64,000 nt of DNA from Woeseiaceae bacterium (GCA_028277185.1 JANQGQ010000010.1:1-64000), one strand, 5' to 3'. Positions 24,680 through 40,571 are shown, counted from the stretch's first letter. Notes: a model not told the origin generated them from the letters alone. Program-made: numbers and translations.

Positions 24680-25984
24680 ATGCTGCGCGCACGGCAGAAG
24701 CTGGGCAAGTACACGATCCTCGGCCGCATCGCGTCGGGTCCTCTCGCCGACGTCTATCGTGCGTACGATCGTATTCAGCGGCTGCGCGTAGCGCTCAAGG
24801 TCCCACGGATGGCGGACCATAGCGGGCACGACGAGTTCCTCAAAGAAGTGCAGGTCGCGACCCGCCTCAGGCACCCGAACCTGCTCGGGGTGCTCAACGC
24901 CAGCTACATCGGCGAGCACTTCGTGATTGCGATGGAGCTCGGCGAAGAATCGCTTGCCGACCGGCTCGAACGGCGAATATCGACGGCGAACGCGCTGGAT
25001 CTGACCGGCCAGGCGCTGCAGGCACTCGCCTGTGTCCACGAAAACAAGGTCATCCACTGCGATATCAAGCCCGAGAACTTCATCCTTTTTCCAGGGAACC
25101 GCCTCAAGCTTTGCGACTATGGTTTCGCGAAGGTGAGTCTCAGGACCCTGAAGGCCTCGGGATCCGGAACGATAGACTACATCGCACCTGAGCAGGCCAT
25201 GGGACGGCCCAAGTTTCAGTCCGACGTCTTTTCGATGGGGCTCGTCATCTATCGGCTGTTGTCGGGCACACTGCCCGAATGGCCCTTCGAGTGGCCGCTG
25301 CCCGGCCAGGACCGGTTGATGCAGCGGGTTCGGCCGGATTTCGTGCGCTTTCTCGAACGGGCGATTCAGATCGATCCGAAGCAGCGCTTCGTCAACGGCA
25401 TCGCGATGCAGGCCGCGTTCGAGCGCCTGCGCGCGCACGCCCGCCGCCAGCGCGACGGTCGGAAGCGTGCGGGTGGCAAGAGTTCCGGTGTGCACAACGT
25501 GAGCTGGCAGCAAATCCGCTGGCGGGAGTTTCGCCGTCGCTTCGGCCGCACCCTCGACCTCAAGCACCGTTGCCGCCACTGCGAAGGGCCGGTAGCGGAG
25601 AGCATGCAGGCCTGCCCGTGGTGCGGCTTCGACAATCCGACGCGCCGGGCCGAGTCGGTCATGCCGTCGTCCTGCCCGCGCTGCGAGCGCGGGGTGAAGA
25701 AGGACTGGGACTACTGCGCCTGGTGCTACGGTCCCGGATTCGTCGAAGAGACGACGCGGCGCTACCCGGACAAACGTTACACCGCCACCTGCAGCAACAA
25801 GCGCTGTCGCGGACCCTTGATGCCGTTCATGCGCTATTGTCCCTGGTGCCGAACCAAAGTTCGCAAACCGTGGAAACTCGAGGGCAGCAAGTCGACCTGC
25901 AAGGCCTGCGGCTGGGGGATTGCGGCGGACTTCTGGAACTTCTGCGCCTGGTGCCGGGAGCCCGTGCCGAGGAAGCAGGGATGA
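24680..25984 (+). CDS. Ser/Thr protein kinase with four C-terminal zinc ribbons
   Basis: This 434-residue cytoplasmic protein has no membrane helix. The kinase domain (about 10-255) has the ATP lysine in RVALKVP (Lys40), the catalytic loop VIHCDIKPENF with HCD in place of HRD (Asp128 kept), and CDYG (Asp146) in place of DFG. A GSGTIDYIAPEQ activation segment is present. Residues 295-430 hold four paired CxxC knuckles: CRHC/CPWC, CPRC/CAWC, CSNKRC/CPWC and CKAC/CAWC, i.e. four zinc ribbons. A zinc-ribbon kinase next to PP2C and vWA genes recalls the TerY-associated triad (family knowledge). It heads the locus. Its stop overlaps the PP2C start. Confidence 0.9.
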   Translation: MLRARQKLGKYTILGRIASGPLADVYRAYDRIQRLRVALKVPRMADHSGHDEFLKEVQVATRLRHPNLLGVLNASYIGEHFVIAMELGEESLADRLERRISTANALDLTGQALQALACVHENKVIHCDIKPENFILFPGNRLKLCDYGFAKVSLRTLKASGSGTIDYIAPEQAMGRPKFQSDVFSMGLVIYRLLSGTLPEWPFEWPLPGQDRLMQRVRPDFVRFLERAIQIDPKQRFVNGIAMQAAFERLRAHARRQRDGRKRAGGKSSGVHNVSWQQIRWREFRRRFGRTLDLKHRCRHCEGPVAESMQACPWCGFDNPTRRAESVMPSSCPRCERGVKKDWDYCAWCYGPGFVEETTRRYPDKRYTATCSNKRCRGPLMPFMRYCPWCRTKVRKPWKLEGSKSTCKACGWGIAADFWNFCAWCREPVPRKQG

Positions 25985-26838
25985 GCGCGGCCGACATGCT
26001 GCTGTTGGATGGCGCCACTACGCCGGCGCAGCAGCTGGCTCCCATGGGCGGCGGACGACTGCTTGCGTACACGGCCCGGGCACCGGACAAGGACACTCAT
26101 AACGAGGACACGGTCGCCAGCATCCCCTGGGGACCCGATGCCTGTGTACTCGTCATCGCCGACGGTGCCGGCGGGCTCCCGGCTGGCAAGCGGGCGTCAC
26201 TGTTGGCTGTGAGGACGCTCGCCGAGTCGCTCGAGGTTGCCGAGGGCAAGACGACGCTTTTGAGAACCGCGGTGCTCAACGGTATCGAAGCTGCGAACGA
26301 AGCGATTCGCGCCGAAGCCAACGGTTCTGCGACGACGCTGACCATCGTGACGATCGAGGGGCATCTGGCGCGCAGCTACCAGGTCGGCGACTCGGAAGCC
26401 GTGATCGTCGGACAGCGCGGCCGAATCCGACTCCAGACGCTTGCCCATTCGCCGACCGGCTTTGCTGTGGAGGCGGGCTTTCTCGACCAGCGGGACGCGC
26501 TGCATCATGCCGACCGTCATGTCGTGTCGAATTTCGTGGGCAACGACGACATGCGTATCGATATCGGCGCCGGGGTGATTCTGAACCCGCGCGACACGGT
26601 GCTCCTCGCCAGCGATGGGCTGACGGACAATCTGCATATCCACGAGGTCGTCGAGCGCATGCGCACGGGTACGCTCGAAAGCGCCATGGATCGGATCGTC
26701 GGTCTTGCGACGCGGCGCATGGCCGAAAGCGACAATAAAACGCCGTGCAAACCGGACGATCTGTCGTTGATCCTCTACCGCAAACCGTACCAGCGCGCGA
26801 AGCCGGGACAACAGCGCCAGCCGGCATCCGACGGTTGA
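25981..26838 (+). CDS. PP2C-type Ser/Thr protein phosphatase
   Basis: This 285-residue cytoplasmic phosphatase starts at an ATGA overlap with the kinase, so the two should be made in matched amounts. PPM-family metal-binding residues are in HNEDTVA, VIADGAGGLPAG (the DGxGG motif), LASDGLTD and PDDLSLIL. SATTLTIV and YQVGDSEAVIV are the usual strands. The protein probably reverses the phosphorylation made by its partner kinase and possibly by the membrane kinase at 29401. Substrates are not known. The FHA protein at 35368 is an obvious candidate reader of the phosphate mark. Confidence 0.92.
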   Translation: MSAADMLLLDGATTPAQQLAPMGGGRLLAYTARAPDKDTHNEDTVASIPWGPDACVLVIADGAGGLPAGKRASLLAVRTLAESLEVAEGKTTLLRTAVLNGIEAANEAIRAEANGSATTLTIVTIEGHLARSYQVGDSEAVIVGQRGRIRLQTLAHSPTGFAVEAGFLDQRDALHHADRHVVSNFVGNDDMRIDIGAGVILNPRDTVLLASDGLTDNLHIHEVVERMRTGTLESAMDRIVGLATRRMAESDNKTPCKPDDLSLILYRKPYQRAKPGQQRQPASDG

Positions 26839-27007
26839 ACGGGCCGCAGCCGCGTATTAAGGTCTTGGAACAGGAAATCCGCGTCGCGACAGGGCCTTGG
26901 CCGCGAAACCGACGGAACTTGCGGCCTCGCCATCGGTTCAAACTCGTAGAGCCGCTATCTTCTACTGCATCTGTCGCGCCGTTGGCGGGCCCGGAGGCTT
27001 CCAGACC

Positions 27008-28147
27008 ATGAAGACGACCCACACTACTGCTTCGATTCCCGCGTGGTTGCGGCCGCTCCTGCTGGCTTTGGCGGTGCTGGCCGTCGGCACGGCGTGCAAT
27101 GAGGATTCCGGGCCGTCATCCCCAAGCGGCGGTGGCTCGTCAGGTGGCGGCGCTTCCGGCGGCGGCTCATCCGGCGGCGGTTCGTCGGGCGGCGGCTCGT
27201 CCGGCGGTGGCTCGTCCGGTGGCGGTATGCCCAGCCCCGGGGGTTCGTCCGGAGGTGGCTCGTCCGGCGGCGGGATACCGAGTCCCGGCGGCCCGTCCGG
27301 TGGCGGTTCATCCGGCGGCGGTACGAACATCCCCACGCCCGGCGGTTCAACCGGAGGTGGCTCACCCGGAGGCGGCATGCCGAGTCCGGGAGGGTCGACT
27401 GGCGGTGGCTCGTCCGGCGGAGCCGGCATCCCGTCGCCGACTGGCGGTTCGGGCGGTTCCGACATGGGCATACCCGCACCCGGCGGCTCCGGCGGCGTGG
27501 GCGGACCCGACATCGGTGGCGCGGGCGGTCAGAGCGGCGGCGACAGCGCCGGCGGCGACGGTGATGGCGACGGCGACAGCAGCGGCGATTGCGGCAGCGC
27601 CGGCGGTATTCCGGGCGGTGTCGGCGGCATGGGCCAGGACGGCGACTGTCTCGGCGGCGGAGGTGGTGCCGGCAGCAGCGCCGATGGCGCTGCCGGGATG
27701 GGCGGCGAAGGCGGCAGTGTCGGCGAGTTTCCCAGCGAAAGCGACGCGGAGCGCGCCGAGCGGCTCGGCCAGGTCCTCGATGAGTCCTTAGGCGATTTCG
27801 ACGAGGTGCTGCACGAGGAACAGGAAGAGGTCGCGGCAGTCGGCCGCAACACCGAGGGCTTCGGCGGCGGTGGCGGCGGCAGCGGCGGGGTCAGCCTCGG
27901 CGAGCAGGCCGGCAGCGGTGGCAGCGGCGGTTCCGTGGCCGTCGTCAACGAAGGCGCGGTGCGCCCCGAATCGCCGACGGCTTCGATGTCGGAGGACGAG
28001 ATCCGCGAGCGGACGCCGGAAGACGTTCCGATGGCGGCTGACGACGACATCATTGCGCGCCAGCTCCGCGAGGCGGCGCTGGCCGAGGAGGACGCCGAGC
28101 TTCGCGAGCGCCTCTGGGAAGAGTATCGGAAGTACAAGGGACTGTAA
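27008..28147 (+). CDS. Gly/Ser-rich putative lipoprotein
   Basis: This 379-residue protein has a hydrophobic N-terminus (about 14-32) ending in AVGTACNED. The Cys at about 33 could be lipidated, although -3 is Gly rather than Leu, so the lipobox is poor. About 40-290 is low-complexity: SSGGG and GIPSPGG-type repeats, then Gly/Asp-rich sequence. The last 70 residues are charged and probably helical (EDEIRERTPEDVPM...LWEEYRKYKGL). I do not recognise the family. The ribosome site GGAGG is 10 bases before the ATG. It may be an envelope-spanning flexible tether in this locus (inference). Confidence 0.7.
   Translation: MKTTHTTASIPAWLRPLLLALAVLAVGTACNEDSGPSSPSGGGSSGGGASGGGSSGGGSSGGGSSGGGSSGGGMPSPGGSSGGGSSGGGIPSPGGPSGGGSSGGGTNIPTPGGSTGGGSPGGGMPSPGGSTGGGSSGGAGIPSPTGGSGGSDMGIPAPGGSGGVGGPDIGGAGGQSGGDSAGGDGDGDGDSSGDCGSAGGIPGGVGGMGQDGDCLGGGGGAGSSADGAAGMGGEGGSVGEFPSESDAERAERLGQVLDESLGDFDEVLHEEQEEVAAVGRNTEGFGGGGGGSGGVSLGEQAGSGGSGGSVAVVNEGAVRPESPTASMSEDEIRERTPEDVPMAADDDIIARQLREAALAEEDAELRERLWEEYRKYKGL
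27127..27430 (+). repeat. Low-complexity Gly/Ser codon repeat
   Basis: Within the gene above, units close to ggcggctcgtccggcggt recur many times, encoding SSGGG runs broken by PSPGG. Unit boundaries are imperfect. Such tracts tend to change length by slippage, so copy number may vary between strains. Confidence 0.75.
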
Positions 28148-28165
28148 GGAGTGGTGAGTCCGGCC

Positions 28166-29395
28166 ATGTTGCGTGCCGTCGGAATTGCAGCGGTGGCGTT
28201 GTTCGCCGCCCAGGGTTGCGCCGTCAAGGAAGTCGTGACGGCGGAGGAAACCGAGTTGGTGGTCGCCGCCGCCCCGGTCGAGGAGCATTTGCTGCTCGAT
28301 ATCGGGATCGTCGAGTTCGACAATGGCGTGCCCGAGGACAACGACCCGGCGAGTACCGGTGTCTTCGAGGAGATACGCTCGGCCGAGGCCCGGTACCTGC
28401 CGTATCACCTGAAGTCGACGCTGCAGGGCACCGGCCATTGGGGCGCCGTGCGCGTGGTGCCTTCGGAACAGGCCTTTACCGACGTCATCGTCAGCGGCAG
28501 CATCGAGAAATCGGACGGCGAGTTCGTGACGCTCAGAGTGCGGGTAGACGATGCAAGCGGCCGACACTGGTTCGAGAACCGCTACAGCGCGCAAACCGGA
28601 ATGTCGTCGTATTCGACGAATCGCGACCGGCGTCAGGACCCCTATCAGAAGGTCTTCAACGATATCGCCAACGATCTCCATCAGCACGCCCAAACGCTCG
28701 GCAATGAGCAGGGCGCCCGGATTCGCGAGATATCGGAAATGCAGTTTTTCGCCGACATGTCGCCGGCGCCGTTTGCGGATTACCTGGCCACGGATGAGGA
28801 CGGCATGCGTACGCTCGTCCGACTCCCGGCCGAGAACGATCCGAGCGTCGCGCGCCTGCGGCAGATCCGCGAGCGCGACCGCCTCGTCGTGGACACCCTC
28901 AACGACCACTACGCGAATTTCTATTACGGCATCGCGATCCCATACCATGCCTGGCGCAAGACGGCTCGCGAGGAGTCGATAAACTACCGTCAGGTAAGGC
29001 GTTCGGGGACGATCAGGGCGCTCATGGGCGCGGTGGTGCTGGCGGGCTCGCTGGCAATGGATACCGACAATAGTTCGAGTCGTTCGACGCGCCGCATGAA
29101 GCGTTCGCTGCAGGCGATCGGTGTTTCCCAGGGCGTCGATCAGATCTTCATGGGTTTCTCGCGGCGTTCCGAGGCCGGACTTCACGCCGAGGCGATTCGC
29201 GAGCTGTCGGAATCCTTCGGTTCCGAAGCGGCGCCCATGCTCGTGACGGTGCGGGGCGAGACGCGGCGTCTGACGGGCACTGCGGCGGCTCAGTACGAGA
29301 GTTGGCGTCGCCTGCTCCGGGAAATCTACGAGGCCGAGACGGGCTTCCCGAGCGACGAAGAACTGGGGACACCCGAGCGCGCGCCTGAAACCTGA
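28166..29395 (+). CDS. Lipoprotein of unknown function in the kinase/vWA locus
   Basis: This 409-residue protein has a signal sequence and a convincing lipobox (FAAQGC, lipidated Cys near residue 18). The mature part starts with an acidic stretch, followed by a domain with LLLDIGIVEFDNG...YLPYHLKSTLQGTGHWGAVRVVPS and DVIVSGSIEKSDGEFVTLRV. This resembles the TolB-N-like or Curli-type secretion domains that compute beta strands (structural impression only). A later hydrophobic segment is TIRALMGAVVLAGSLAM. I do not recognise the family. It lies 18 bases after the previous lipoprotein and 5 bases before the membrane kinase, so it is surely co-transcribed. A GTG at 28151 is an alternative start. 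Confidence 0.7.
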   Translation: MLRAVGIAAVALFAAQGCAVKEVVTAEETELVVAAAPVEEHLLLDIGIVEFDNGVPEDNDPASTGVFEEIRSAEARYLPYHLKSTLQGTGHWGAVRVVPSEQAFTDVIVSGSIEKSDGEFVTLRVRVDDASGRHWFENRYSAQTGMSSYSTNRDRRQDPYQKVFNDIANDLHQHAQTLGNEQGARIREISEMQFFADMSPAPFADYLATDEDGMRTLVRLPAENDPSVARLRQIRERDRLVVDTLNDHYANFYYGIAIPYHAWRKTAREESINYRQVRRSGTIRALMGAVVLAGSLAMDTDNSSSRSTRRMKRSLQAIGVSQGVDQIFMGFSRRSEAGLHAEAIRELSESFGSEAAPMLVTVRGETRRLTGTAAAQYESWRRLLREIYEAETGFPSDEELGTPERAPET

Positions 29396-29400
29396 TTGCC

Positions 29401-31749
29401 ATGAGTGACCGGTCTGGTTTGCGCGAGCTCCGGCCCGGCGCCGAGCTGCTTGATCGCTATCGGTTGAAGCGCCGGCTCGGCCGTGGCGGGGAAGCCGAGA
29501 CCTGGCTGGCTGCCGACCGGATGACCGGGGCAGCCGTCGCGCTGAAGATCCTCAACGCTCCCGATGGGAACCGCGGTGTTCTGCATCGCGAGTGGCAGAC
29601 GTCGATTCGGCTCGTGCATCCGCACATCGCCCGCACTTTCGAGTTTCACGACGATGCAGCAGGCGCCTTCTACAGTCTGCAGTACGTCGAAGGCCCCGCT
29701 GCCGGCGTGCTTGCCGGCGCCGCGGCCAGGGCGGTGCTGCCGGTCATAGCGGCGATTGCCGACGCGCTGCGCTACGCCCACGGAAAAGGCATCGTGCACC
29801 GGGACGTCAAGGCCGACAACGTCCTGCTGGATGCGAACGGAGCGCCGTACCTGATCGATTTCGGCGTTGCCGCGCCGGTCGGACAGGCCGCCAGCGGCGG
29901 TTCGCCGATTGCCGCCTCTCCAGCACAGCTCGATGGCGGGGTTGCCGCTACCGGGGACGACGTGTTCGCGCTCGGCGGGCTGGCCTACGAGTTGTTGGCC
30001 GGACGGGCGCCGTACTCCGGAGCCGATCTGGCCGAAGCGATCGAACACGAAGTGCCGCCCCCGGTCGCTGCCGCCAACGGTGAAGCGCTTCCCGAGGCGG
30101 TAACCGCGCTCGTCGCGGCGATGCTTGCGAAGGACCCGGCGGCGCGGCCCGGTGCTGCCGAAGTCGTCGAAACCCTGGCCGCCGCAGGCTTTCGGCCGGG
30201 CGCCGCTCCCGCGGACCTCGTCGCCAGACCCGGAGACTCCGGCACGGAGACTGTCGAGTCTCAGGCGGCCCGTTTCCGCAAGCCCGCGCCGTCCGCCACG
30301 ACGCCAGCGGCGGCGGAGCCGCGCGGCGGTATACAGCCGCTTGCGGTGTATGGATCGTTCGCCGTCCTGCTGCTGTTGCTTCTCGGCGTCGTGTTCTACC
30401 TGCCGGACCGCGTTGCCGACGCGCCGCCCGCGGAACCGGCCGACGAACCCGCCGTCCCGGCCGAGCCGGAGCCCGAGACGACCCCGGTTATCCGTGACGA
30501 GCCTCCGGCACGGGATGCCAGGGTGGAATCCCGGCAGGTCACCGAAGCCGTTTTGGGCCGCTTGCTGTCGATGATGCAGACGCTCGAAGCGCGTGCCGTG
30601 CAGCGCTGGGGCGGATTGACCTATGCGCAGGGCAGGGCGGCGTACGAGGCAGGCGACGAGGCCTTCCTCGATCGCGACTACGAAACCGCGGCTGCCGAGT
30701 ACGAAAAGGCGATCGGCTTGCTCGAACCTCTGCTGGACCAGGTCAACACGGTGTTTGCCGACACGCTTGCCCGCGGTCTCGCGGCGCTCGACGACGGCGA
30801 TGCGACGGCGGCGCTGGAAGCACTCGACCTCGCGGTGGCGGTAAGCCCCGGCGACCGGCAGGCGCAGGAGGGGCTCGAACGGGCGAGAAACCTGGAGCAG
30901 GTATTGTCCCTCGTCGCGTCGGGGGAGCGCTACGAGGGCAACCTGGAGTTCGATCTCGCTCTCGAGGCGTTCGGACGTGCCAACGAGATCGATCCGCTCT
31001 GGGCGCCGGCAAGCGACGGTATTGCCCGGGTGCGGGCAGCGGCGATGCAGATGGACTTCGACTCGCGAATGAGCGAGGGGCTTGCCGCGCTTGCCGTCGA
31101 GGACTTCGCCACCGCGCGGGCCGCCTTCAGGCGGGCCGAGGCATTGCGCCCCGGATCCAGCGAGGCGCGCGACGGACTGCTGCAGGTGGATCAGGGCGTG
31201 CGGCTCCAGCGTATTCGCCTGCTCGAACAGGAGGCGGCGGCGGTAAGCGCGGACGAGCGCTGGGAAGACGCCGTCAGCACTTACGAAGCGATCCTCGAAC
31301 TCGATCCGAATCTGGCCTTCGCACAGCAGGGGCTTCAGGACGCCAATCGGATGGTGAACGTCCACCGGGAGTTCGATCGCTACATCGCCGAACCCGATTC
31401 CCTGAGCTCGCCGGCGACGATGCAGCGCGCGACGAACCTGGTCGTATCGGTGACGCGTCTTCCGGAAGTCGGACCGAGGCTCGAGGCTCAGCGCGACGAG
31501 CTGTCCCGCCTGTTGAAACGTGCAGCGACACCCCTTACCGTCGAACTGGTATCGGACAACGTCACCGAGGTGTCGATTCACCGCGTTGGCCGGCTGGGCA
31601 GTTTCAGCTTGCGGCGCGTGGAGCTGCGGCCGGGAACGTACGTTGCCGTCGGCAGCCGGCCTGGCTATCGCGACGTGCGGGTTGAGTTCCGCGTTGCGCC
31701 CGAAGAGGACATGCAGCCCGTCGTCGTGCAGAGTGAGGAGCCAATTTGA
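29401..31749 (+). CDS. Transmembrane Ser/Thr protein kinase with periplasmic repeats
   Basis: This 782-residue protein has a cytoplasmic kinase domain (about 19-265) with GRGGEAE, ATP lysine Lys49 in VALKIL, HRDVKADN (His133, Asp135) and IDFGVA. A linker follows, then one transmembrane helix (about 316-335: YGSFAVLLLLLLGVVFYLP). The periplasmic part has an acidic Pro/Glu-rich stalk, then about 350 residues of helical TPR-like repeats (AAAEYEKAIGLLEP, ALEAFGRANEIDP, AAFRRAEALRPG). A C-terminal PEGA-like segment (RVELRPGTYVAVGSRPGYRDV) closes it. The topology suggests sensing in the periplasm and phosphorylation in the cytoplasm. Its stop overlaps the TTG start of the next gene by four bases. 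Confidence 0.9.
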   Translation: MSDRSGLRELRPGAELLDRYRLKRRLGRGGEAETWLAADRMTGAAVALKILNAPDGNRGVLHREWQTSIRLVHPHIARTFEFHDDAAGAFYSLQYVEGPAAGVLAGAAARAVLPVIAAIADALRYAHGKGIVHRDVKADNVLLDANGAPYLIDFGVAAPVGQAASGGSPIAASPAQLDGGVAATGDDVFALGGLAYELLAGRAPYSGADLAEAIEHEVPPPVAAANGEALPEAVTALVAAMLAKDPAARPGAAEVVETLAAAGFRPGAAPADLVARPGDSGTETVESQAARFRKPAPSATTPAAAEPRGGIQPLAVYGSFAVLLLLLLGVVFYLPDRVADAPPAEPADEPAVPAEPEPETTPVIRDEPPARDARVESRQVTEAVLGRLLSMMQTLEARAVQRWGGLTYAQGRAAYEAGDEAFLDRDYETAAAEYEKAIGLLEPLLDQVNTVFADTLARGLAALDDGDATAALEALDLAVAVSPGDRQAQEGLERARNLEQVLSLVASGERYEGNLEFDLALEAFGRANEIDPLWAPASDGIARVRAAAMQMDFDSRMSEGLAALAVEDFATARAAFRRAEALRPGSSEARDGLLQVDQGVRLQRIRLLEQEAAAVSADERWEDAVSTYEAILELDPNLAFAQQGLQDANRMVNVHREFDRYIAEPDSLSSPATMQRATNLVVSVTRLPEVGPRLEAQRDELSRLLKRAATPLTVELVSDNVTEVSIHRVGRLGSFSLRRVELRPGTYVAVGSRPGYRDVRVEFRVAPEEDMQPVVVQSEEPI

Positions 31750-34184
31750 GCTTTGACCACCTGATTGTCCGCGACGTCGAGGGCGAACGTCGCGTAGCCG
31801 CGAGCGCGCTGCCGCTGCGTCTCGGAACGGGTGGCGATAGCGACATCCGTCTGCCCGGTCCCGGCGGCGGCCCTGTCGTTCTCATCGATCTGCTCGACGG
31901 CGCGCCGTTTGCCCAGCCCGTCGGTCGCGACGGCAGCATCACGCTCAACGGAGAGCCTCTGGTCGCCAGCCGCAAGCTCGACGACGGTGACACGCTGGCT
32001 TTTTTCGGCAGTCGTATCGAGGTCTCGGCTGCGGACGATCGACTGATGCTCAGCGTACGCCTCGAGGACAGCGCCTACGTGACGCGTCCGCCGGAGCTCG
32101 AGGACACCGAAGCGGCCGCGCGTGAGGAAGCGATCATGCCCGCGGCGTTCCGGCGCGCCGCCGAAACCCGCGCGCTCGAGCCTGCCGCGGACCGCCACAT
32201 ACTGCGCTGGGTGCTGATAAGCGGCTTCGTCGTGTTGGGGGTACTCGCCTGGTTGCTGTTCACGTCGCGCAGCATCGAAATTGCCGTGACGCCGGAGGCA
32301 CCCGACAGAATCGACATCCGCGGTGGCTGGTTCCGGTTGCCGCTCGGCAACCGTGTTCTGCTTCGCGAGGGCGACTACTCGCTCGAGGTGGAGAAGGCCG
32401 GCTACTACGACGTCAACCAGTCGTTCACGGTGGACGACACGCCAAGCCGCACGATCGAGGTGACGCTCCGCAGGCGTCCCGGGGAGGTGATCGTGTACAC
32501 GGCCGACGGCGCGCAAGCGACCGTCACGATCAACGGCAGCATCGTGGGTGAGGCGCCGTTGGGGCCCGTCGAGCTGCAGCCGGGCGAGCACACGCTCGAA
32601 GTGCAGTCCGAGCGATACCTGCCGGTTCTGCACGCGTTCGAGATGGCCGGGCTGGCCAGATCCGATCGAATCACCGTGCAGCTCGTGCCGCGCTGGGCCA
32701 ACGTGACGATTACGTCCGAACCGTCGGGTGCGAACATCCTCGCCGACGATGAGCTCGTCGGCACCACGCCGGCCGTGATCGAGCTGATCGAAGGGGAGCA
32801 CACGCTCTCGGTAGTCCGCGAAGGGTTCAAAGCGTGGGACGGAAACGTCGTAACGCGGCCCAACGAGGCCCTGGAGCTGCCGTTGATCGAGCTGGAAGCC
32901 GCCGATGCGCGGTTGCTCGTAAATACGGTGCCGCGCGGCGCGAACGTCACGGTGGACGGGCGCTACCGCGGTCAGTCGCCGATCACGATCGATCTGGCTC
33001 CCGACGTCAACTACACGATTGGCCTGTCCAAGGCCGGCTACGGTTCGGCGACACGCGAGGTTCGCCTCGCGTCGGCCGCAAGCGAGCAGATAACCGTCGA
33101 TCTGAGCGCGAGGACGGGGCGCGTTACGGTCAACGTCTCGCCGGCCGACGCGACGGTCTACGTTGACGGCCGCGCCCGGGGTACCGGCACGACGACGTTG
33201 GACCTGAGTTCCGCGCCGAAGCGCATCGAAGTACGCAAGGCCGGGTACGAGACCTGGCAACGGACGATCACGCCCAGGCCGGGCTATCCGCAAACGCTGA
33301 GCGCGCGCCTCAGGAGCGATGCCGACATCGCGGCCGCAAGCATTCAGCGCGAGCAGACGACCGAAGAGGGTCACGTACTGCGGCGGATCGAGCCCGGCGA
33401 GTTCCGGCTGGGCTCGTCGCGCGGCGAAGCCGGCAGGCGGGCAAACGAGGTGATCGTTCCGGTGAGGCTGACGAGGCCGTTCCTGATCGGCGTGAACGAG
33501 GTGACGAACCGGCAGTTCGCGGCTTTCGATCCGGCCCACGACTCCGGCGCCGATTTGAGTCCGACCATGGCGGGCGACAACAATCCGGTCGCGAACGTGA
33601 CGTGGACGCAGGCCGTCCGATATCTGAACTGGCTGAGTGCCAAAGAGGGCCTCAATCCCGTCTACAAGGAGGAGTTCGGCGAGTGGGTGGCGATCCGGCC
33701 GTTCCCGAACGGCTATCGCCTGCCGACCGAAGCGGAATGGGCGTGGGCAATCCGCTATGAGGGCAACCCCAATGCGCTCAGGTTTCCCTGGGGCGAAGGC
33801 TGGCCGCCGCGCAGGGTCACGGGTAACTTCGCCGACCAGTCCGCGGATGGCATTGCACCGACGCTGATACCCGATTACGACGACGGCTTCACGGCAACTT
33901 CGCCCGTCGGCAATTTTCCGGCCAATGCAGCAGGCCTGCACGATGGCGGCGGCAACGTTGCCGAATGGACCAACGATTACTACGCCGTTCCAACGCCCGG
34001 TCAGACACGGCCGGTCGTCGACCCGCTGGGTCCAGAGCGCGGGCGAAGCAACGTGATTCGCGGATCGAGCTGGCGACACGGCACGGAAACCGAGCTAAGG
34101 CTGAGCTATCGGGATCAGGGCACCGAGGCGAGACCTGACTTAGGTTTCCGGATCGCGCGCAATCTGGAACCGGCCGCAGAGTAG
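31746..34184 (+). CDS. FHA-like / TM / five-PEGA / formylglycine-enzyme-like membrane protein
   Basis: This 812-residue protein starts at TTG (TTGA overlap with the kinase). Residues 1-105 look like a degenerate FHA domain (RLGTGGDSDIRLPG, LNGEPL, LDDGDTLAFFGS). A helix follows at about 155-173 (LISGFVVLGVLAWLLFT). Then come five PEGA-type repeats of about 60 residues (for example VTITSEPSGANILADDELVG, VNVSPADATVYVDGRARG). Last is a formylglycine-generating-enzyme-like domain (about 545-805) with YRLPTEAEWAWAIRYEG, GNVAEWTNDYY and VIRGSSW. The whole protein has no cysteine that I can find, so the catalytic Cys pair of true FGE is absent and this domain is probably a binding module. It likely sits in the periplasm beside the kinase. 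Confidence 0.88.
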   Translation: MSFDHLIVRDVEGERRVAASALPLRLGTGGDSDIRLPGPGGGPVVLIDLLDGAPFAQPVGRDGSITLNGEPLVASRKLDDGDTLAFFGSRIEVSAADDRLMLSVRLEDSAYVTRPPELEDTEAAAREEAIMPAAFRRAAETRALEPAADRHILRWVLISGFVVLGVLAWLLFTSRSIEIAVTPEAPDRIDIRGGWFRLPLGNRVLLREGDYSLEVEKAGYYDVNQSFTVDDTPSRTIEVTLRRRPGEVIVYTADGAQATVTINGSIVGEAPLGPVELQPGEHTLEVQSERYLPVLHAFEMAGLARSDRITVQLVPRWANVTITSEPSGANILADDELVGTTPAVIELIEGEHTLSVVREGFKAWDGNVVTRPNEALELPLIELEAADARLLVNTVPRGANVTVDGRYRGQSPITIDLAPDVNYTIGLSKAGYGSATREVRLASAASEQITVDLSARTGRVTVNVSPADATVYVDGRARGTGTTTLDLSSAPKRIEVRKAGYETWQRTITPRPGYPQTLSARLRSDADIAAASIQREQTTEEGHVLRRIEPGEFRLGSSRGEAGRRANEVIVPVRLTRPFLIGVNEVTNRQFAAFDPAHDSGADLSPTMAGDNNPVANVTWTQAVRYLNWLSAKEGLNPVYKEEFGEWVAIRPFPNGYRLPTEAEWAWAIRYEGNPNALRFPWGEGWPPRRVTGNFADQSADGIAPTLIPDYDDGFTATSPVGNFPANAAGLHDGGGNVAEWTNDYYAVPTPGQTRPVVDPLGPERGRSNVIRGSSWRHGTETELRLSYRDQGTEARPDLGFRIARNLEPAAE

Positions 34185-34265
34185 TCCGTGGCCGGTCTCT
34201 TACGAATCGTGAGACAATTTGGCCGCGACGCGGTCAAAGATCGAAACGGACATCGGAGCGAACGA

Positions 34266-34535
34266 ATGGCTATGCAACGATTGGCGACGCTGCTTGCGGG
34301 TCTCGCCTTGCTGACGGCGTCTGCCGTTGCGCAGGACGACCGCGGCGAGCAGGAGGCACCGGATACCGAGGCGAGTGCCGAACAGGTCGACGAGCCCGCA
34401 GCAAGCGACGATACCGAACTACTCGACGATCCCGAACTCGATATGCAGGGATTCGACCCCACCGCCGACGACGACTTCATTCCGAGCGAAGAGATCCCGG
34501 CCGACGAACCGATTGCGTTCCCCACCGATATTTGA
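34266..34535 (+). CDS. Small acidic exported protein
   Basis: This 89-residue protein has a signal peptide (MAMQRLATLLAGLALLTASAVAQ, cleavage after AVA-Q). The mature part is strongly acidic (about 65 residues, with few Lys or Arg), for example SDDTELLDDPELDMQ and PSEEIPADEP. A ribosome site GGAG lies 8 bases before the ATG at 34266. I do not recognise the family. It sits three bases before the ExbB-like gene and so belongs to the same transcript. It could be a periplasmic plug or partner for that machine, which is inference. Confidence 0.6.
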   Translation: MAMQRLATLLAGLALLTASAVAQDDRGEQEAPDTEASAEQVDEPAASDDTELLDDPELDMQGFDPTADDDFIPSEEIPADEPIAFPTDI

Positions 34536-34538
34536 ATC

Positions 34539-35339
34539 ATGCAAAAGAAGAACATCCCAGTCGAATTTGTGTTTCAGCTCTTTGCGCTGATTATCGCCGT
34601 GATCGTCGTTCACGCGTTTTATGTTTCCGTCGTCCGTCCGAACGCCGAGCAAATCATCGAGGAACAGAATGCCGCCGCGGCCGCGGATCCGGACTATGTG
34701 CGCGAGCGCCATGTGTGGGTACTCATCAAGGATCTGGAACAGGAGGCCTGTTTCATCCTGATGTTCTGGGCGCTTGCAATCATGGGCTACAAGGCCGTGA
34801 AGATAATGGGTGAGCGGCGGCTGCTCGATATCGAACTCGTGCCGGTTGCGGAGGGTATGCGAATACTCCCGGAGGATACGCGCGAGTTTGCGCGTCAGGT
34901 CCAGTCGCTGCCTGAGGACCGGCAGCGAATGCTGCTGCCGCGCGCGCTTATGAATGCGTTGCGCCGTTTCGGCACCACGCGAAACATCCAGGACGTGTCG
35001 AGCAGCACCCACACGATTTGCGAGTCCGAAGCGGAACGCCTGGAGTCCGAGTTGTCGATGATTCGCTACATCTCCTGGGCGATTCCGAGTATCGGCTTCA
35101 TCGGTACGGTCCGCGGTATCGGCGAGGCACTCGCACAAGCGGACAAAGCCGTGCAGGGGGATATCGCGGGCGTTACTCAAAGCCTGGGCGTCGCGTTCAA
35201 CTCGACATTCATCGCGCTTCTCATCAGCATCTTCCTGATGTTCCTCGTGCACCAGCTCCAGCTCATGCAGGAGCGTCTGGTGTTCGACAGCGAGGCATAC
35301 TGCGACGAGAAGCTGATCCGCCACATGCAGGCGGACTGA
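34539..35339 (+). CDS. MotA/TolQ/ExbB-type proton-channel subunit
   Basis: This 266-residue inner-membrane protein has hydrophobic segments at about 9-32, 69-89, 178-198 and 216-240, with a cytoplasmic helical part at 90-175. The last two helices carry the ExbB/TolQ/MotA signature: ISWAIPSIGFIGTVRGIGEA, then AGVTQSLGVAFNSTFIALLISI, including the small-residue and Thr pattern that lines the ion path. These proteins form pentamers around a dimer of ExbD/TolR/MotB. No classical ExbD or MotB gene is nearby. The two vWA proteins at 36725 and 37838 have the N-terminal helix and Asp expected of the partner, so this is likely the A subunit of a new motor. Confidence 0.9.
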   Translation: MQKKNIPVEFVFQLFALIIAVIVVHAFYVSVVRPNAEQIIEEQNAAAAADPDYVRERHVWVLIKDLEQEACFILMFWALAIMGYKAVKIMGERRLLDIELVPVAEGMRILPEDTREFARQVQSLPEDRQRMLLPRALMNALRRFGTTRNIQDVSSSTHTICESEAERLESELSMIRYISWAIPSIGFIGTVRGIGEALAQADKAVQGDIAGVTQSLGVAFNSTFIALLISIFLMFLVHQLQLMQERLVFDSEAYCDEKLIRHMQAD

Positions 35340-35367
35340 GCCGGTCCGGACCCATCGAGGCGGAATC

Positions 35368-36735
35368 GTGAGTCTGCTGGCTGCACACATCAACGACGCC
35401 GGGATTACGGTTCTCGGCGAGCGCGGTGTCGTTTACCGCGAACCCGGATTCGCGCTGCTCGACGATCGGGAGCTTTATACCGGCGAGAAGGCCTTCGCGA
35501 ACGCGAGGCTCAAGCCGCGGCGCATACACAACCACTACTGGAGTTCGCTCTCGGCCGAGCCGCTCAGCGACGCGCGGTTTCGGCACCTCACGGCAGCGGA
35601 TCTCGTCAGCCTGCAGCTCGAGTCGCTATGGGCCTTGTCCTCGAAAGCGGGTGACCGCCTCATCGTCGCCGTCCCGCCGAGCATGAACGGTGAGCAATTG
35701 GGCCTGTTTCTCGGTATCGCCGACGCGCTCGGTATCCCGATCGTCGCCATGGTGGACGCGGCCGTGTCGGCGACCCGCCGCGAGTATCCGGGAGCCGTCC
35801 CGGTACACGTCGATCTCGGTCTGCACGGAGCGCTCCTGACGCGGCTCTCGCAAAACGGGCAGGCGCAGGTCGAGCGGAGCGCCGTGGTGGACGATGTCGG
35901 CGCCGTGGCGCTCACGGATACGTGGATCAAGTCGATTGCCGGCGCATTCGTCAGGCAGTCGCGCTTCGATCCGCTGCACACCGCGGAAACGGAGCAGCTG
36001 ATGCAGGACCGGCTGCCGGAGTGGCTGTCGCTCCTCGCTGCGCGGGACAGTGTCGAAGTCGCGATCGACTACCGGGGTATCGAACACCGCGCCGAACTGG
36101 ACAGACTGGAAGTCATAGCGGCGGTCGAGCCGCTGTATCAGCGGCTCGTCGGGCAGCTACGCGCCCTGTTTCGGGCCGACGAACACCCCGCGATTCAGCT
36201 CAGCGATCGCGCCGCGCGGCTTCCGGGTCTCGCGGATGCGCTTTCCGCGCGGGTGGGTGGCGACGTCTTCATGCTCGAGGCCGGCGCGACCGCGCGCGGA
36301 CTGCTGGCCCGCTGCCGCGAGATGCAGCGTTCCTCGAGCAGCGTGGCTTTGCTGAAGCAGCTGCACTGGGATCAGTCGCCGGCCGCAATCGGGCAATCGT
36401 CGCAGGGCGACGACGGCAAGAGGCCGAGCCATCTGCTGTTCGGTGCGCGCGCCTGGCCGATCGACAGTCAGGTACTCGTGCTGGGCTCGCAGCCGGCAGA
36501 AGGCGAGCGCTTCGTCGATTTGCCCGCGGACATGCCCGGTGTCTCGCGGCGGCATTGCGCGCTTCGCCAGCAGGGCGGACAGTGCATCGTCGAGGACTAT
36601 TCGCGCTACGGGACTTTTCTGAACGGTCACCGGATTGAAGGTTCGGCCGTGCTGCAGGCGGGCGATCAGCTCAGGATCGGCACGCCGGGACACGAGTTCA
36701 AGCTGATCGTGACGGAGGCCGCGCATGCGCCGTAG
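35368..36735 (+). CDS. Actin/Hsp70-like ATPase fold fused to an FHA domain
   Basis: This 455-residue cytoplasmic protein starts at GTG after GAGGCGGAATC. Residues 1-340 resemble the ASKHA fold (actin, Hsp70, PilM, FtsA): a first phosphate-loop-like hairpin (AAHINDAGITVLGERGVVY), RLIVAVPPSMN, and a second one (VHVDLGLHGALLTRL). Residues about 370-450 form a good FHA domain: VLVLGSQPAEG, PGVSRRHCALR, DYSRYGTFLNGHRI and LQAGDQLRIGTPG, with the Ser-Arg-Arg-His phosphothreonine-binding pattern. It should read phosphate marks made by the locus kinases. Its stop lies 11 bases inside the next gene. ATP binding is not proven; the Gly-rich loop is less complete than in DnaK. Confidence 0.78.
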   Translation: MSLLAAHINDAGITVLGERGVVYREPGFALLDDRELYTGEKAFANARLKPRRIHNHYWSSLSAEPLSDARFRHLTAADLVSLQLESLWALSSKAGDRLIVAVPPSMNGEQLGLFLGIADALGIPIVAMVDAAVSATRREYPGAVPVHVDLGLHGALLTRLSQNGQAQVERSAVVDDVGAVALTDTWIKSIAGAFVRQSRFDPLHTAETEQLMQDRLPEWLSLLAARDSVEVAIDYRGIEHRAELDRLEVIAAVEPLYQRLVGQLRALFRADEHPAIQLSDRAARLPGLADALSARVGGDVFMLEAGATARGLLARCREMQRSSSSVALLKQLHWDQSPAAIGQSSQGDDGKRPSHLLFGARAWPIDSQVLVLGSQPAEGERFVDLPADMPGVSRRHCALRQQGGQCIVEDYSRYGTFLNGHRIEGSAVLQAGDQLRIGTPGHEFKLIVTEAAHAP

Positions 36736-37822
36736 ACGTCGCGAAGGCAACGTATTCAGCATGTCGTTTCTCGACTGCATGAGCTGCGGTTTCGGCGCCG
36801 TGATCCTGTTCTTCATGATCATCAACGCGCAAGTTAAGGAGACTACGGAGAACGATCCCAGCAACCTGATGGCCGAAACGCGGATGCTCGAAGAAGAGAT
36901 ACTCGAAGGGCGGAAGAATCTGGTGCTGGCGAGGAATACGCTCGAGCAGGTGGAAACCGAGCAGGAGACCGCCGAGGGCGAGATAGCGCGAATACTGGCG
37001 CTGATAGAGGAGCTGCGCGCCGAACTCGCGGAGTACGATGAGGATTCGCTTGCGAAGATCGAACGCGTCGAGCAGCTCCAGTCGGATATCGAGCTGCTCG
37101 AAGAAGAGGTCAAGCGGCTGCTTGCTTTACGGGAAGAGCAGGAAAACCAGGGCACGAGGCTCAGGGAGTTCAAAGGGGAGGGCGACCGGCAGTACCTGAC
37201 GGGCCTGAAGCTCGGCGGTCAGCGAACGCTCGTGCTCGTGGACCGGTCGGCCAGCATGCTCGACAGCACCATCGTCAACATCATTCGCCGGCGCAACATG
37301 TCCGATGCAGAGAAGCTGCGTGCCGTCAAATGGCGGCAGGTCGTCGCGACCGTGGACTGGCTGACGTCGCAGTTCCAGCCGGGCAGCGAGTTTCAGATCT
37401 ACATGTTCAACAACGAAGCGCAGCCGGTGATCAGGGGCAGCGACGGCACCTGGCTCAAGGCCGACGACGCCAGCCAGCTCAACGAGGCGATTCGCGTGTT
37501 GCGGCGGACGGTGCCGGAAAACGGCACCAACATGCGGGCGGCCTACGCGATTGCCGACAGTCTTACGCCCAGGCCCGACAACATCATTCTGCTGGTCGAC
37601 GGGCTGCCCACGCTGGGAGAGTCGACGAGCGCCCGGAACATGATCAGCGGCCGGGAGCGGGTCAACCTGCACCGCCGCGCCATCCGCGAACTCCCCAACG
37701 GCGTTCCGGTCAATATTCTTCTGTATCCAATGGAGGGCGATACGGACGCCGCCATCCTCTACTGGACGCTGGCTTATGCCACGCAGGGTTCGTTCATGAG
37801 CGTCAGTCGTGACTGGCCTTAA
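36725..37822 (+). CDS. Membrane-anchored vWA protein with ExbD/MotB-like helix (1)
   Basis: This 365-residue protein has a poly-Arg N-terminus (MRRRRREG), then one helix: FSMSFLDCMSCGFGAVILF (11-29), with Asp17 in the position of the ion-carrying Asp of ExbD and MotB. Residues 45-150 form a long coiled coil. The vWA domain (about 160-365) has a canonical MIDAS, LVDRSASM (Asp173, Ser175, Ser177), and later DGLPTLG. Topology by positive-inside is N-in with the vWA domain periplasmic. The start codon at 36725 overlaps the FHA gene by 11 bases. The vWA may bind a metal-dependent ligand or another envelope part. It is a likely partner of the ExbB-like protein. Confidence 0.87.
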   Translation: MRRRRREGNVFSMSFLDCMSCGFGAVILFFMIINAQVKETTENDPSNLMAETRMLEEEILEGRKNLVLARNTLEQVETEQETAEGEIARILALIEELRAELAEYDEDSLAKIERVEQLQSDIELLEEEVKRLLALREEQENQGTRLREFKGEGDRQYLTGLKLGGQRTLVLVDRSASMLDSTIVNIIRRRNMSDAEKLRAVKWRQVVATVDWLTSQFQPGSEFQIYMFNNEAQPVIRGSDGTWLKADDASQLNEAIRVLRRTVPENGTNMRAAYAIADSLTPRPDNIILLVDGLPTLGESTSARNMISGRERVNLHRRAIRELPNGVPVNILLYPMEGDTDAAILYWTLAYATQGSFMSVSRDWP

Positions 37823-37837
37823 CTCGAGGAGTGTCTG

Positions 37838-38839
37838 TTGAAGCGCCGCCGCCGCAACGTCGAAGCGTTCAGCCTGTCGTTCCTCGACTGCATCTGCTGT
37901 GGTTTCGGTGCAATCATTTTGCTGCTGGTGCTCAGCAAGATCTACGAACCCGTCATCATCGAAAAAACGCAGGATGACCTGGAGTCGTTGATCGCCCTGC
38001 TCGAGCAGGAGCTGTTCGAGATACGGGGCGAAACGGCCGTGCTGGACCGCACGCTGGAAGACAAGCGCGAGCAGACGTCGGCGACCAGGCTCCAGCTGGC
38101 ACGGCTGCAGGGTGAGCTGAGTACGGTGCGCGGGCAGTTTCAGGCAACGCAGCAGGAGTCGGAGTCGATACTCGACGAGGGCGCACTGATGGCGGCCAGG
38201 CAGCGTCTGACCGAGGAAATGCGTCGGCTGCAGCCGTACTTCCGCCGGGCAAGCGACGATGCGGTCGGCGGCATTCCGGTCGACAGCGAGTACATCATCT
38301 TCGTGATCGATACCTCGGGCAGCATGCAGCAATACAACTGGCGACGCGTTCAGGAAAAGATCACCGAGACCCTGGATGTCTATCCGGAAGTGAAAGGCAT
38401 CCAGATCATGAACGACAACGGGAACTTCATGTTCTCGCAGTATCGCAACCGCTGGATTCCGGACTCGCCGGGCCGCCGGCAGGCGATCGTCAACACGCTC
38501 CGTACGTGGCGGCCGTTCAGCGACTCCAATCCGGCCGATGGCATCATCTACGCGATCAATACGTTCTGGCAGCCCGACAAGAAGATCAGCATCTACGTGT
38601 TCGGCGACGAGTTCAGCGGCCGCTCCGTCGAGGCGGTCGCACGGCAGATCGACGCGGTAAACCGGAAAACGGCCGACGGTAATCGGCTCGTTCGCATTCA
38701 CGCCGTCGGCTTCCCCTATCTTTTCAACAGCGGCGGCAACGTTCCGCCGACGGCCGTGCGCTTCTCGCAGCTCATGCGGGTTATCTGCGAGCGCAACGGC
38801 GGCACCTTCGTGGCACTTACAGACTTCCGCGGCGCCTGA
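37838..38839 (+). CDS. Membrane-anchored vWA protein with ExbD/MotB-like helix (2)
   Basis: This 333-residue paralogue starts at TTG, 8 bases after a good GAGGAG site. It has the same plan: MKRRRRNVEA, then the helix FSLSFLDCICCGFGAIILL with Asp17, a coiled coil at about 45-135, and a vWA domain (about 150-333) with a canonical MIDAS DTSGSM (Asp158, Ser160, Ser162). FLDC and CGFGA are identical to the previous protein, but the vWA domains differ markedly. Two such proteins suggest either a heterodimeric B subunit or two alternative partners. The last residues are FVALTDFRGA. It is 15 bases after the first vWA gene. Confidence 0.87.
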   Translation: MKRRRRNVEAFSLSFLDCICCGFGAIILLLVLSKIYEPVIIEKTQDDLESLIALLEQELFEIRGETAVLDRTLEDKREQTSATRLQLARLQGELSTVRGQFQATQQESESILDEGALMAARQRLTEEMRRLQPYFRRASDDAVGGIPVDSEYIIFVIDTSGSMQQYNWRRVQEKITETLDVYPEVKGIQIMNDNGNFMFSQYRNRWIPDSPGRRQAIVNTLRTWRPFSDSNPADGIIYAINTFWQPDKKISIYVFGDEFSGRSVEAVARQIDAVNRKTADGNRLVRIHAVGFPYLFNSGGNVPPTAVRFSQLMRVICERNGGTFVALTDFRGA

Positions 38840-38917
38840 GGGCTGCCACGATTCGTCAGATTTCATCGGCGCCGTGCCACGGAGCCGCCGTCAGCGCGAC
38901 CCGGTTCCGCCCTTTAA

Positions 38918-38951
38918 TAGTCTCCACGGAACAGCCGTCACATGGAGACTA
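38918..38951 (+). promoter_or_regulatory. 9-bp inverted repeat covering the ribosome site of the OmpA-like gene
   Basis: TAGTCTCCA (38918-38926) pairs perfectly with TGGAGACTA (38943-38951) across a 16-base loop. The right arm contains the GGAG ribosome site (38944-38947) of the gene starting at 38957. As RNA it could hide the site and make translation conditional. As DNA it could be an operator. A TTTAAT -10-like box overlaps the left arm (38913-38918), which would favour the DNA reading. Confidence 0.5.
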
Positions 38952-38956
38952 ATGAC

Positions 38957-39688
38957 ATGAAACGAACGACTATCGCGATCGCCGCTTCGGCCATCATCGC
39001 CGCGACGCTTGCCGCGGTACCCGCACAGGCGAAAGCATCGAAGGAAGAAACGGTCGGCGTGGGCGCCGGCGGCCTGATCGGCGCCGCGGCCGGCGGACCG
39101 GTCGGGTTCATCATCGGCGCCGCGATCGGTGCCAAGATCGGCGACAGCTTTCATCAGAAGAACGAGCGCATCGATACGCTGTCGGCAGACCTCGATGTCT
39201 CGCGCGAAACGATAAGCGATCTCGAACTGGACGTCGCCGCGCTCAACCGCGACATCGACGCGATGGCCGACGATCTCGCTCACATGCAGCGCGTGTCGTA
39301 TCCGGAGCTGACGCGTCTGCTCGAAGCCGGCGTGGCAATGGACCTGCCGTTCCGTACCGACGAGCACGTTCTGCCGGAGTCGACGACCGAACGGTTCGCC
39401 GTGCTCGGCAAGAAGCTTGCGACGATGCCGAACGTGCAGGTTCGGCTCGACGGTTTTGCCGATCAGCGCGGCGCAAGCGAGTACAACCAGACGCTGTCCG
39501 AGAAGCGCGTTGCCGAGGTCCGCGAACTCCTGCTGGCAGCCGGCGTGTCGCCGGAGCGGATCACGACCGCCGCGCATGGCGAAACCGAGGTAACGGACCC
39601 GTCGCCCGACACTCTGGCTCTGGAACGTCGCGTAAGCGTCACGCTGAGCCTTGCCGGCGAGGCATCGTTTGCCGCGAACCCGGAGTAA
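38957..39688 (+). CDS. OmpA-family outer-membrane/periplasmic protein with glycine zipper
   Basis: This 243-residue protein has a signal peptide (about 1-24, ending PAQA). A Gly-zipper follows (VGVGAGGLIGAAAGG...GFIIGAAIGAKIGD), then a coiled coil (NERIDTLSADLDVSRETISDLE), then a C-terminal OmpA-like peptidoglycan-binding domain (VRLDGFADQRGASEYNQTLS, RVAEVRELLLAAGVSPERI). It matches the Gly-zipper OmpA proteins such as the sortase-associated PdsO group, with no sortase gene seen here. The start at 38957 gives a proper signal peptide; the ATG at 38942 would put five extra residues in front. It may anchor the preceding machine to the cell wall, which is inference. Confidence 0.87.
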   Translation: MKRTTIAIAASAIIAATLAAVPAQAKASKEETVGVGAGGLIGAAAGGPVGFIIGAAIGAKIGDSFHQKNERIDTLSADLDVSRETISDLELDVAALNRDIDAMADDLAHMQRVSYPELTRLLEAGVAMDLPFRTDEHVLPESTTERFAVLGKKLATMPNVQVRLDGFADQRGASEYNQTLSEKRVAEVRELLLAAGVSPERITTAAHGETEVTDPSPDTLALERRVSVTLSLAGEASFAANPE

Positions 39689-39712
39689 CCCCGCACTCCG
39701 GACCCCCGGGAG

Positions 39713-39741
39713 ACCGGCCAGCTTGCTGGCCGGTTTCTTTT
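39713..39741 (+). terminator. Intrinsic terminator after the kinase/vWA locus
   Basis: accggccagc-tt-gctggccggt is a perfect 10-bp stem followed by ttctttt. This is the strongest intrinsic terminator in the window and ends the block of genes that starts at 24680 or 27008. Confidence 0.85.
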
Positions 39742-40242: not shown

Positions 40243-40571
40243 ACCCCCAATCTACCATGCAAGCAGCCGCACAAAGCCCTTTGTCTCTATGAGCGAGGAA
40301 ACTCTGCGTTCGCATTTCCTGGTGCAACTGAACTGCAAACGCTTGATTGAGAAACGCAGCGAATCCGGCTGGATCTGTTGCTTTTCTCACGGAGGCGACC
40401 CAAACCGGGAAACGACAGAGTAGACTCGCTGGAGACATCCGTTCGCCCATCGTTTCTCGTGATTCTCCGCGGTTTTGGGTCGGTCGGATCGTCTACTTCT
40501 CCATATTTTTCAGAGAGTTGTCGGTATACTGGATGCATGTACAGGCGCCAGCAACGCTGAGGTAGAAGCCC
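40243..40571. other. Intergenic region, no gene seen
   Basis: This 329-base gap separates the DUF1801 gene from the HNH gene. It is lower in GC than its neighbours. Short open frames on both strands show no family resemblance. The right end has the promoter-like box and a GAGG ribosome site of the HNH gene. Confidence 0.6.
40525..40530 (+). promoter_or_regulatory. -10-like box before the HNH gene
   Basis: TATACT matches five of six consensus bases, 42 bases before the ATG at 40572. No good -35 is seen. Confidence 0.3.

Follow-up and report, generated by a model that had tools for sequence, protein, structure and literature searches.

The closest described relatives of the system considered here were predicted in a recent paper (Mol Biol Evol 2025, msaf138; PMC12204202), which in its section 8 and Fig. 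4c,d presents a second family of transmembrane (TM) vWA proteins, TPH-vWA, found mostly as heterologous pairs in Proteobacteria and adjoining tolQ homologues without tolR or exbD. AlphaFold 3 (AF3) models in the same work combine vWA pairs with TolQ-like pentamers and show the aspartate of the transpore helix ringed by threonines. Here, we analyzed a 64,000-nucleotide stretch of a Woeseiaceae bacterium contig (GCA_028277185.1, JANQGQ010000010.1:1-64000; the window), in which twelve same-strand open reading frames (ORFs), A to L, occupy positions 24680–39688 (+) and carry the features named in an original prediction made from the sequence. Three of the products, the motor subunit H and the vWA proteins J and K, almost certainly constitute the same core as the published family, judged by the features described there, and they belong to a larger gene set that is conserved as a unit and is not a chance neighborhood.

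The H/J/K motor core

In nearly all informative loci, the tolQ-like gene H lies beside the heterologous TM-vWA pair J and K. H has no tolR or exbD partner, the operon containing neither gene, and the helix aspartate (D17 in both J and K) is accompanied by motor threonines T190 and T223 in H. These two threonines are invariant, and H displays the segments GFIGTVRGIG and FNSTF; a sequence search of the PDB with H returned a TolQ match that was weak. The N-termini of J and K form a helix of the SFLDxxxCGFGA type, in which Asp17 is at least 95% conserved in each protein. Their vWA domains match Pfam weakly (6e-6 and 3e-4, respectively), yet the metal ion-dependent adhesion site (MIDAS) motifs are complete in both, DxSxS and the later Asp being present in 28/28 diverse sequences of J and likewise of K. 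Between Asp17 and the MIDAS lie about 157 residues in J and 142 in K, and the heptad (3.5-residue) periodicity of these linkers exceeds that of all 200 shuffles.

The source genome, which is 98% complete, contains 13 ExbD and 13 MotA/ExbB matches. Each ExbD gene is found within ~1.5 kb of an ExbB gene other than H, and MotA/ExbB genes without a neighboring ExbD are limited to H and a contig-end gene (C1:590) that is likely flagellar. Because all 13 ExbD genes adjoin other ExbB genes, none is spare for H; a distant ExbD partner, which the original prediction had named as a refuting outcome, was looked for genome-wide and is rejected for this genome. Together with the conserved Asp17 and Thr residues, this supports the predicted ion-driven motor with a vWA pair in place of the B subunit. 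Elsewhere in the same genome (G000), paired ExbB genes, one of them in a long frame (about 460–470 aa), occur with ExbD genes at C20:29853-31673 and C6:165296-166573, two loci that are reminiscent of extended TonB-type motors.

The machine had been proposed as undescribed. This does not hold for the motor-vWA core, already predicted in PMC12204202, while the other conserved parts do seem undescribed: its text names no C, D, E, F, G, I or kinase layer, and a literature search on the whole operon found that paper only. The whole conserved machine, the TolB-like fold of D and the FPxDI tail of G are new here.

Conservation of the gene set and its regulatory layer

Searching genome contigs with K gave 424 relatives, of which the best 80 were examined. 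Wherever the contig was long enough, tblastn of all proteins recovered a single order, C-D-E-F-(G)-H-I-J-K, and its recurrence in nearly all informative relatives is far above chance. The fixed order C-D-E-F-G-H-(I)-J-K extends across families of Gammaproteobacteria and beyond them to a second class of the phylum and to metagenome-assembled genomes (MAGs) of Acidobacteriota. Hidden Markov model (HMM) searches located the block in 20-kb stretches from other families and the second class (H 42–46% identical), in the Acidobacteriota MAGs L074 and L078, and in a Halioglobus genome (L083). Variants include placement of H after K (L143/L144), several loci without I, and one locus (L065:11033-18424) in which the F-E-D-C half, as one block, stands in reverse orientation to H-I-J-K. 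The expectation that the gene set recurs as a unit in diverse genomes was thus borne out by synteny in both near and distant relatives, and the opposite outcome, genes not conserved together, did not occur.

H was detected in 31/369 sampled Gammaproteobacteria genomes (16 families) and, within Woeseiaceae, in 93/101 genomes, 44/45 good genomes and 12/12 genera. The system is essentially single-copy, is retained in family genomes of only 1.2–2.0 Mb, and was found on no plasmid in a plasmid search. These observations bear on a possible role in phage defense or biological conflict, with Zorya or the vWA/PP2C/kinase conflict systems as the relatives. Such a role, which the weak ZorA-likeness of H (8e-4) and the similarity of the A kinase to PD-T4-6 models might suggest, is hardly credible for genes that are core in the family and kept in its streamlined genomes, and on this distribution we rejected it. 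Moreover, ZorC/D/E gave no PADLOC match among the 10 proteins scanned, L matching ZorB at 0.006 in its OmpA part, and searches for type VI secretion system (T6SS) core genes returned only generic OmpA/FHA cross-matches far below cut-off. The earlier statement that the locus is not T6SS, Zorya or Ter is supported, T6SS core genes and ZorC/D/E not having been found among the proteins scanned.

The original prediction also had the machine gated by Thr phosphorylation. On this reading, phosphorylation by A and E, detected by the FHA domain of I and undone by B, would be the essential motor switch. Some observations favor it. The E kinase and the SRxHC signature of the I FHA domain are concordant at 74/76 judgeable loci, with 50 having both and 24 neither (16 with a degenerate FHA, 8 without I); of the two discordant loci, L023 has a broken frame and L065 combines a pseudokinase (HGG for HRD) with a degenerate FHA. 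A is likewise linked to the operon across Woeseiaceae. It occurs in 43/61 family genomes and 33/37 good ones, and lies 8.8–14 kb upstream of H on the same strand in 32/32 genomes with both on one contig; A/B also lie near the operon in L068.

As a universal gate, however, phosphorylation was rejected. In most of the distant relatives, E lacks the kinase (TM at residue 18–93), the N-terminal extension of F is often absent, and I is either missing or has an FHA domain without the SRxHC/GTxLNG signature; A is missing from a streamlined genus that retains H. Classical phosphothreonine-binding FHA domains use an Arg of β3-4, the Ser of SRxH and the Asn of SxNGT. The FHA domain of I in the window has SRRH, but its Arg (GS for GR) and Asn (SRYGT for SxNGT) are replaced. 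On a tree of H+J+K, kinase-free lineages separate two clades that have the kinase/FHA state, one of Woeseiaceae with L072/L081 and one of L141/L152, which implies at least two gains or losses, some branches being weakly supported. Because distant relatives mostly lack the E kinase and I FHA signature and streamlined relatives lack A, phosphorylation is a regulator in some lineages and not part of the machine core, and an essential phospho-switch is unlikely.

Gene layout, envelope partners and proposed mechanism

The coordinates and assignments of the features are collected in Table 1. ORF calls and Pfam agree with the twelve same-direction genes and the domain content originally proposed, save that F, thought to carry five PEGA repeats, has four above the Pfam threshold. 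A contains ALK, HCDIKPEN and DYG motifs plus seven CxxC, and the metal-site Asp motifs DGAG, SDG and DDL are present in B; C, D and G matched no Pfam family. The overlapping start and stop codons described earlier are present at A/B, E/F and I/J. Gaps of 3–28 bp separate C/D, D/E, G/H, H/I and J/K, with wider ones at B-C (169 bp), F-G (81 bp) and K-L (117 bp), spacings that make one or two transcripts plausible. As for the strong terminator claimed at the end, a hairpin with T-run is visible, but in the scan as a whole terminator-like sites were no commoner than in shuffles. Beyond the operon, an HNH-endonuclease-like ORF (40475–41947), which may be an insertion, precedes a pterin-dehydratase-like gene (about 42000); relatives of the latter directly follow the operon in L072, L081 and L150 and lie nearby in L077.

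Table 1. Features of the operon in the window, with the evidence for each assignment
Feature	Coordinates	Strand	Assignment	Evidence
A	24680..25984	+	zinc-ribbon Ser/Thr kinase, accessory	Pfam Pkinase 1.8e-34, DZR 3.6e-8
B	25981..26838	+	PP2C phosphatase, accessory	PP2C_2 2.9e-16
C	27008..28147	+	Gly/Ser-rich lipoprotein candidate	conserved C-terminal motif DDDIVARQLREAA..E.DPELREKLWEEYRKYK
D	28166..29395	+	lipoprotein, TolB-N-like domain and long helical hairpin	lipobox Cys, AF2, Foldseek, hhalign
E	29401..31749	+	TM protein, periplasmic TPR; N-terminal Ser/Thr kinase in some lineages only	Pfam Pkinase, TPR
F	31746..34184	+	TM protein, periplasmic PEGA repeats and FGE-type domain, N-terminal extension before TM	PEGA 2.4e-47, FGE 2.6e-36
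G	34266..34535	+	small acidic exported protein, C-terminus FPTDI	tail conservation
H	34539..35339	+	TolQ/ExbB/MotA-like motor subunit	PF01618 MotA_ExbB 2.3e-14
I	35368..36735	+	ASKHA (Hsp70-like) domain and FHA domain	AF2/Foldseek; FHA 1.6e-13
J	36725..37822	+	axle subunit 1 (putative): TM helix with Asp17, coiled coil, vWA with MIDAS	
K	37838..38839	+	axle subunit 2 (putative): TM helix with Asp17, coiled coil, vWA with MIDAS	
L	38957..39688	+	glycine-zipper/OmpA protein, PdsO-like, lineage-specific	OmpA 5.9e-13; TIGR03789 130.5 bits, cut-off 152.2
Likely operon terminator	39706..39735 (about)	+	hairpin with ~10-bp GC stem, then T-run	

The C-terminal motif of C is highly conserved up to the most distant loci. 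In D, for which an alternative GTG start is possible at 28151, the lipobox Cys is invariant in 25 relatives, and the AlphaFold 2 (AF2) model (pLDDT 82; N domain mostly 90–98) has a TolB-like fold. TolB accounts for most of the top 20 Foldseek matches (best E 1.8e-3, probability 1.00), and hhalign of D against TolB N-domains gave P=1.1e-3 and 20% probability, compared with <1% for four controls; a sequence search of the PDB with D gave no match. The model and profile evidence suggests homology to TolB but does not prove it. For I (AF2 pLDDT 90), Foldseek matches to the Hsp70 nucleotide-binding domain reach a TMt of 0.72, in agreement with the actin-like/FHA protein of the original prediction, here an Hsp70-type ASKHA domain plus FHA. 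Because its FGE-type domain lacks Cys (F of the window has none, and the relatives listed have no more than one in their FGE part), F is not a formylglycine-generating enzyme (FGE), the catalytic Cys pair being missing.

L was found solely in Woeseiaceae-type loci. A sortase link for this PdsO-like protein was rejected, as both dedicated-sortase matches of the genome are on other contigs: one is a proteobacterial dedicated sortase at C23:39921-40442 of G000, whose 209.7 bits exceed the cut-off, and the other, at C7:47887-48348, is weaker.

G, located between F and H, varies in length and composition among loci, and in the second class consists almost wholly of a signal/TM segment and some 15 further residues (SAASFPVDI). 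Directly upstream of H, an ORF with the C-terminus [FYLM]-P-x-[DN]-I was found at 82/86 loci versus 0/1740 control windows; the search pattern itself requires P and I, and among the 82 the first position is F in 76 and the fourth D in 74. The four loci without such an ORF at this position are L142, where the system is missing, L143/L144, where H is displaced (in L143 a matching ORF is present in the F-H interval), and L078, where the frame called for H is too long and a G is detected by the G HMM. MIDAS motifs bind acidic residues, and the free acidic tail of G would suit the MIDAS of J or K.

Taken together, we consider that the operon probably encodes a force transducer that spans the envelope, draws its power from the ion motive force and, through its vWA shaft, acts on partners in the periplasm and outer membrane. 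Five copies of H would form an inner-membrane wheel around a heterodimeric axle of one J and one K, with the N-terminal helices in the pore and Asp17 as the ion carrier, an arrangement with which the published AF3 models of vWA pairs and TolQ-like pentamers agree. The coiled coil of roughly 100 residues (about 15 nm) would serve as a drive shaft across the periplasm, conveying a presumed rotation to the vWA domains as load-bearing heads. The axle may act on a periplasmic part made up of the putative outer-membrane lipoproteins C and D with the inner-membrane proteins F and E, and the Asp of the FPxDI tail of G may be a ligand of the J or K MIDAS, making G a clutch or anchor. In some lineages, including the source, the E kinase, the I FHA domain and the A/B pair would act as regulators.

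Several points weigh against this reading. The J/K heterodimer and its 5:2 stoichiometry with H are carried over from homology, and the linker lengths of J and K, compared as a test of heterodimerization, gave no rank correlation. The likeness of D to TolB is weak by both the E-value and the profile probability given above, and full-chain TM-scores are low. At L142 (G500:C39), a strong H relative (1e-99) has no other operon gene detected within ~10 kb, and the literature search found no functional data on any operon member.

In seven to ten non-Woeseiaceae loci, two lipoproteins without a family and an M48 metallopeptidase lie downstream of K, and a TPR protein is encoded ahead of C; the downstream extension is seen at L139:15314-18136 and also in L083, L117, L140, L148, L154 and L155. 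These neighbors favor outer-membrane upkeep, and maintenance of the outer membrane or of peptidoglycan is the likeliest task of the machine, with motility or defense less probable. We tentatively advance a further-reaching proposal, namely that a widespread, largely core machine driven by proton-motive force stands beside Ton and Tol, with a heterodimeric vWA shaft that couples through MIDAS to the FPxDI tail of G as a metal-dependent clutch and pulls or turns the TolB-like and Gly-rich outer-membrane lipoproteins, phospho-signaling having been repeatedly gained or lost. If the machine works as proposed, Gram-negative bacteria would possess a further general means of delivering ion energy from the inner to the outer membrane, one that practically all good Woeseiaceae genomes retain, genomes smaller than 2 Mb included. 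Force transmission in such motors could be probed at single residues in the FPxDI tail, at the two Asp17 positions and in the MIDAS sites, and the matched presence and absence of kinase and FHA shows that regulation has been added to and removed from an old motor.

Comparison with known systems

Several components recall Tol-Pal, to which the operon is alike in its motor subunit with conserved Thr, its Asp-helix partner, the TolB-like fold of D and the OmpA/Pal-like L. It is possible, though doubtful, that the operon encodes a second Tol-Pal-like system that stabilizes the outer membrane at division, with H as TolQ, J/K as TolR, D as TolB-like and L as Pal-like. However, L is lineage-specific, no TolA was found, neither E nor F has a conserved TM His of the SHLS type, and no TolR-type B subunit (ExbD family) is encoded in the operon. 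Compared with TolB, which comprises an N domain and a propeller, D shows a weak N-terminal likeness and has the helical hairpin in the propeller's place. Canonical TolQ/R/B-type genes sit together on a separate contig (C36), so the force transducer proposed here is an additional machine, unlike Tol-Pal in having vWA shaft heads in place of TolR/TolA and extra PEGA/FGE/TPR proteins.

A gliding or protein-secretion motor of the GldKLMN type, as in the type IX secretion system (T9SS), with F in the role of GldK, is quite improbable. Both combine an ion-driven motor with FGE-fold and lipoprotein partners, and the closest NCBIfam relative of the F FGE domain is GldK/PorK (3.7e-20), but its score of 72.6 bits is far from the cut-off of 350 and no GldL, GldM or GldN match was obtained. 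The operon is also kept in very small genomes, where a gliding machine would be unlikely, and F is membrane-anchored with PEGA repeats, unlike the GldK lipoprotein. Zorya ZorAB, finally, resembles the operon in pairing a MotA/ExbB-type subunit with a membrane-Asp partner; the operon differs in having no effectors, a vWA domain in place of the OmpA-type ZorB, and a core-genome distribution.

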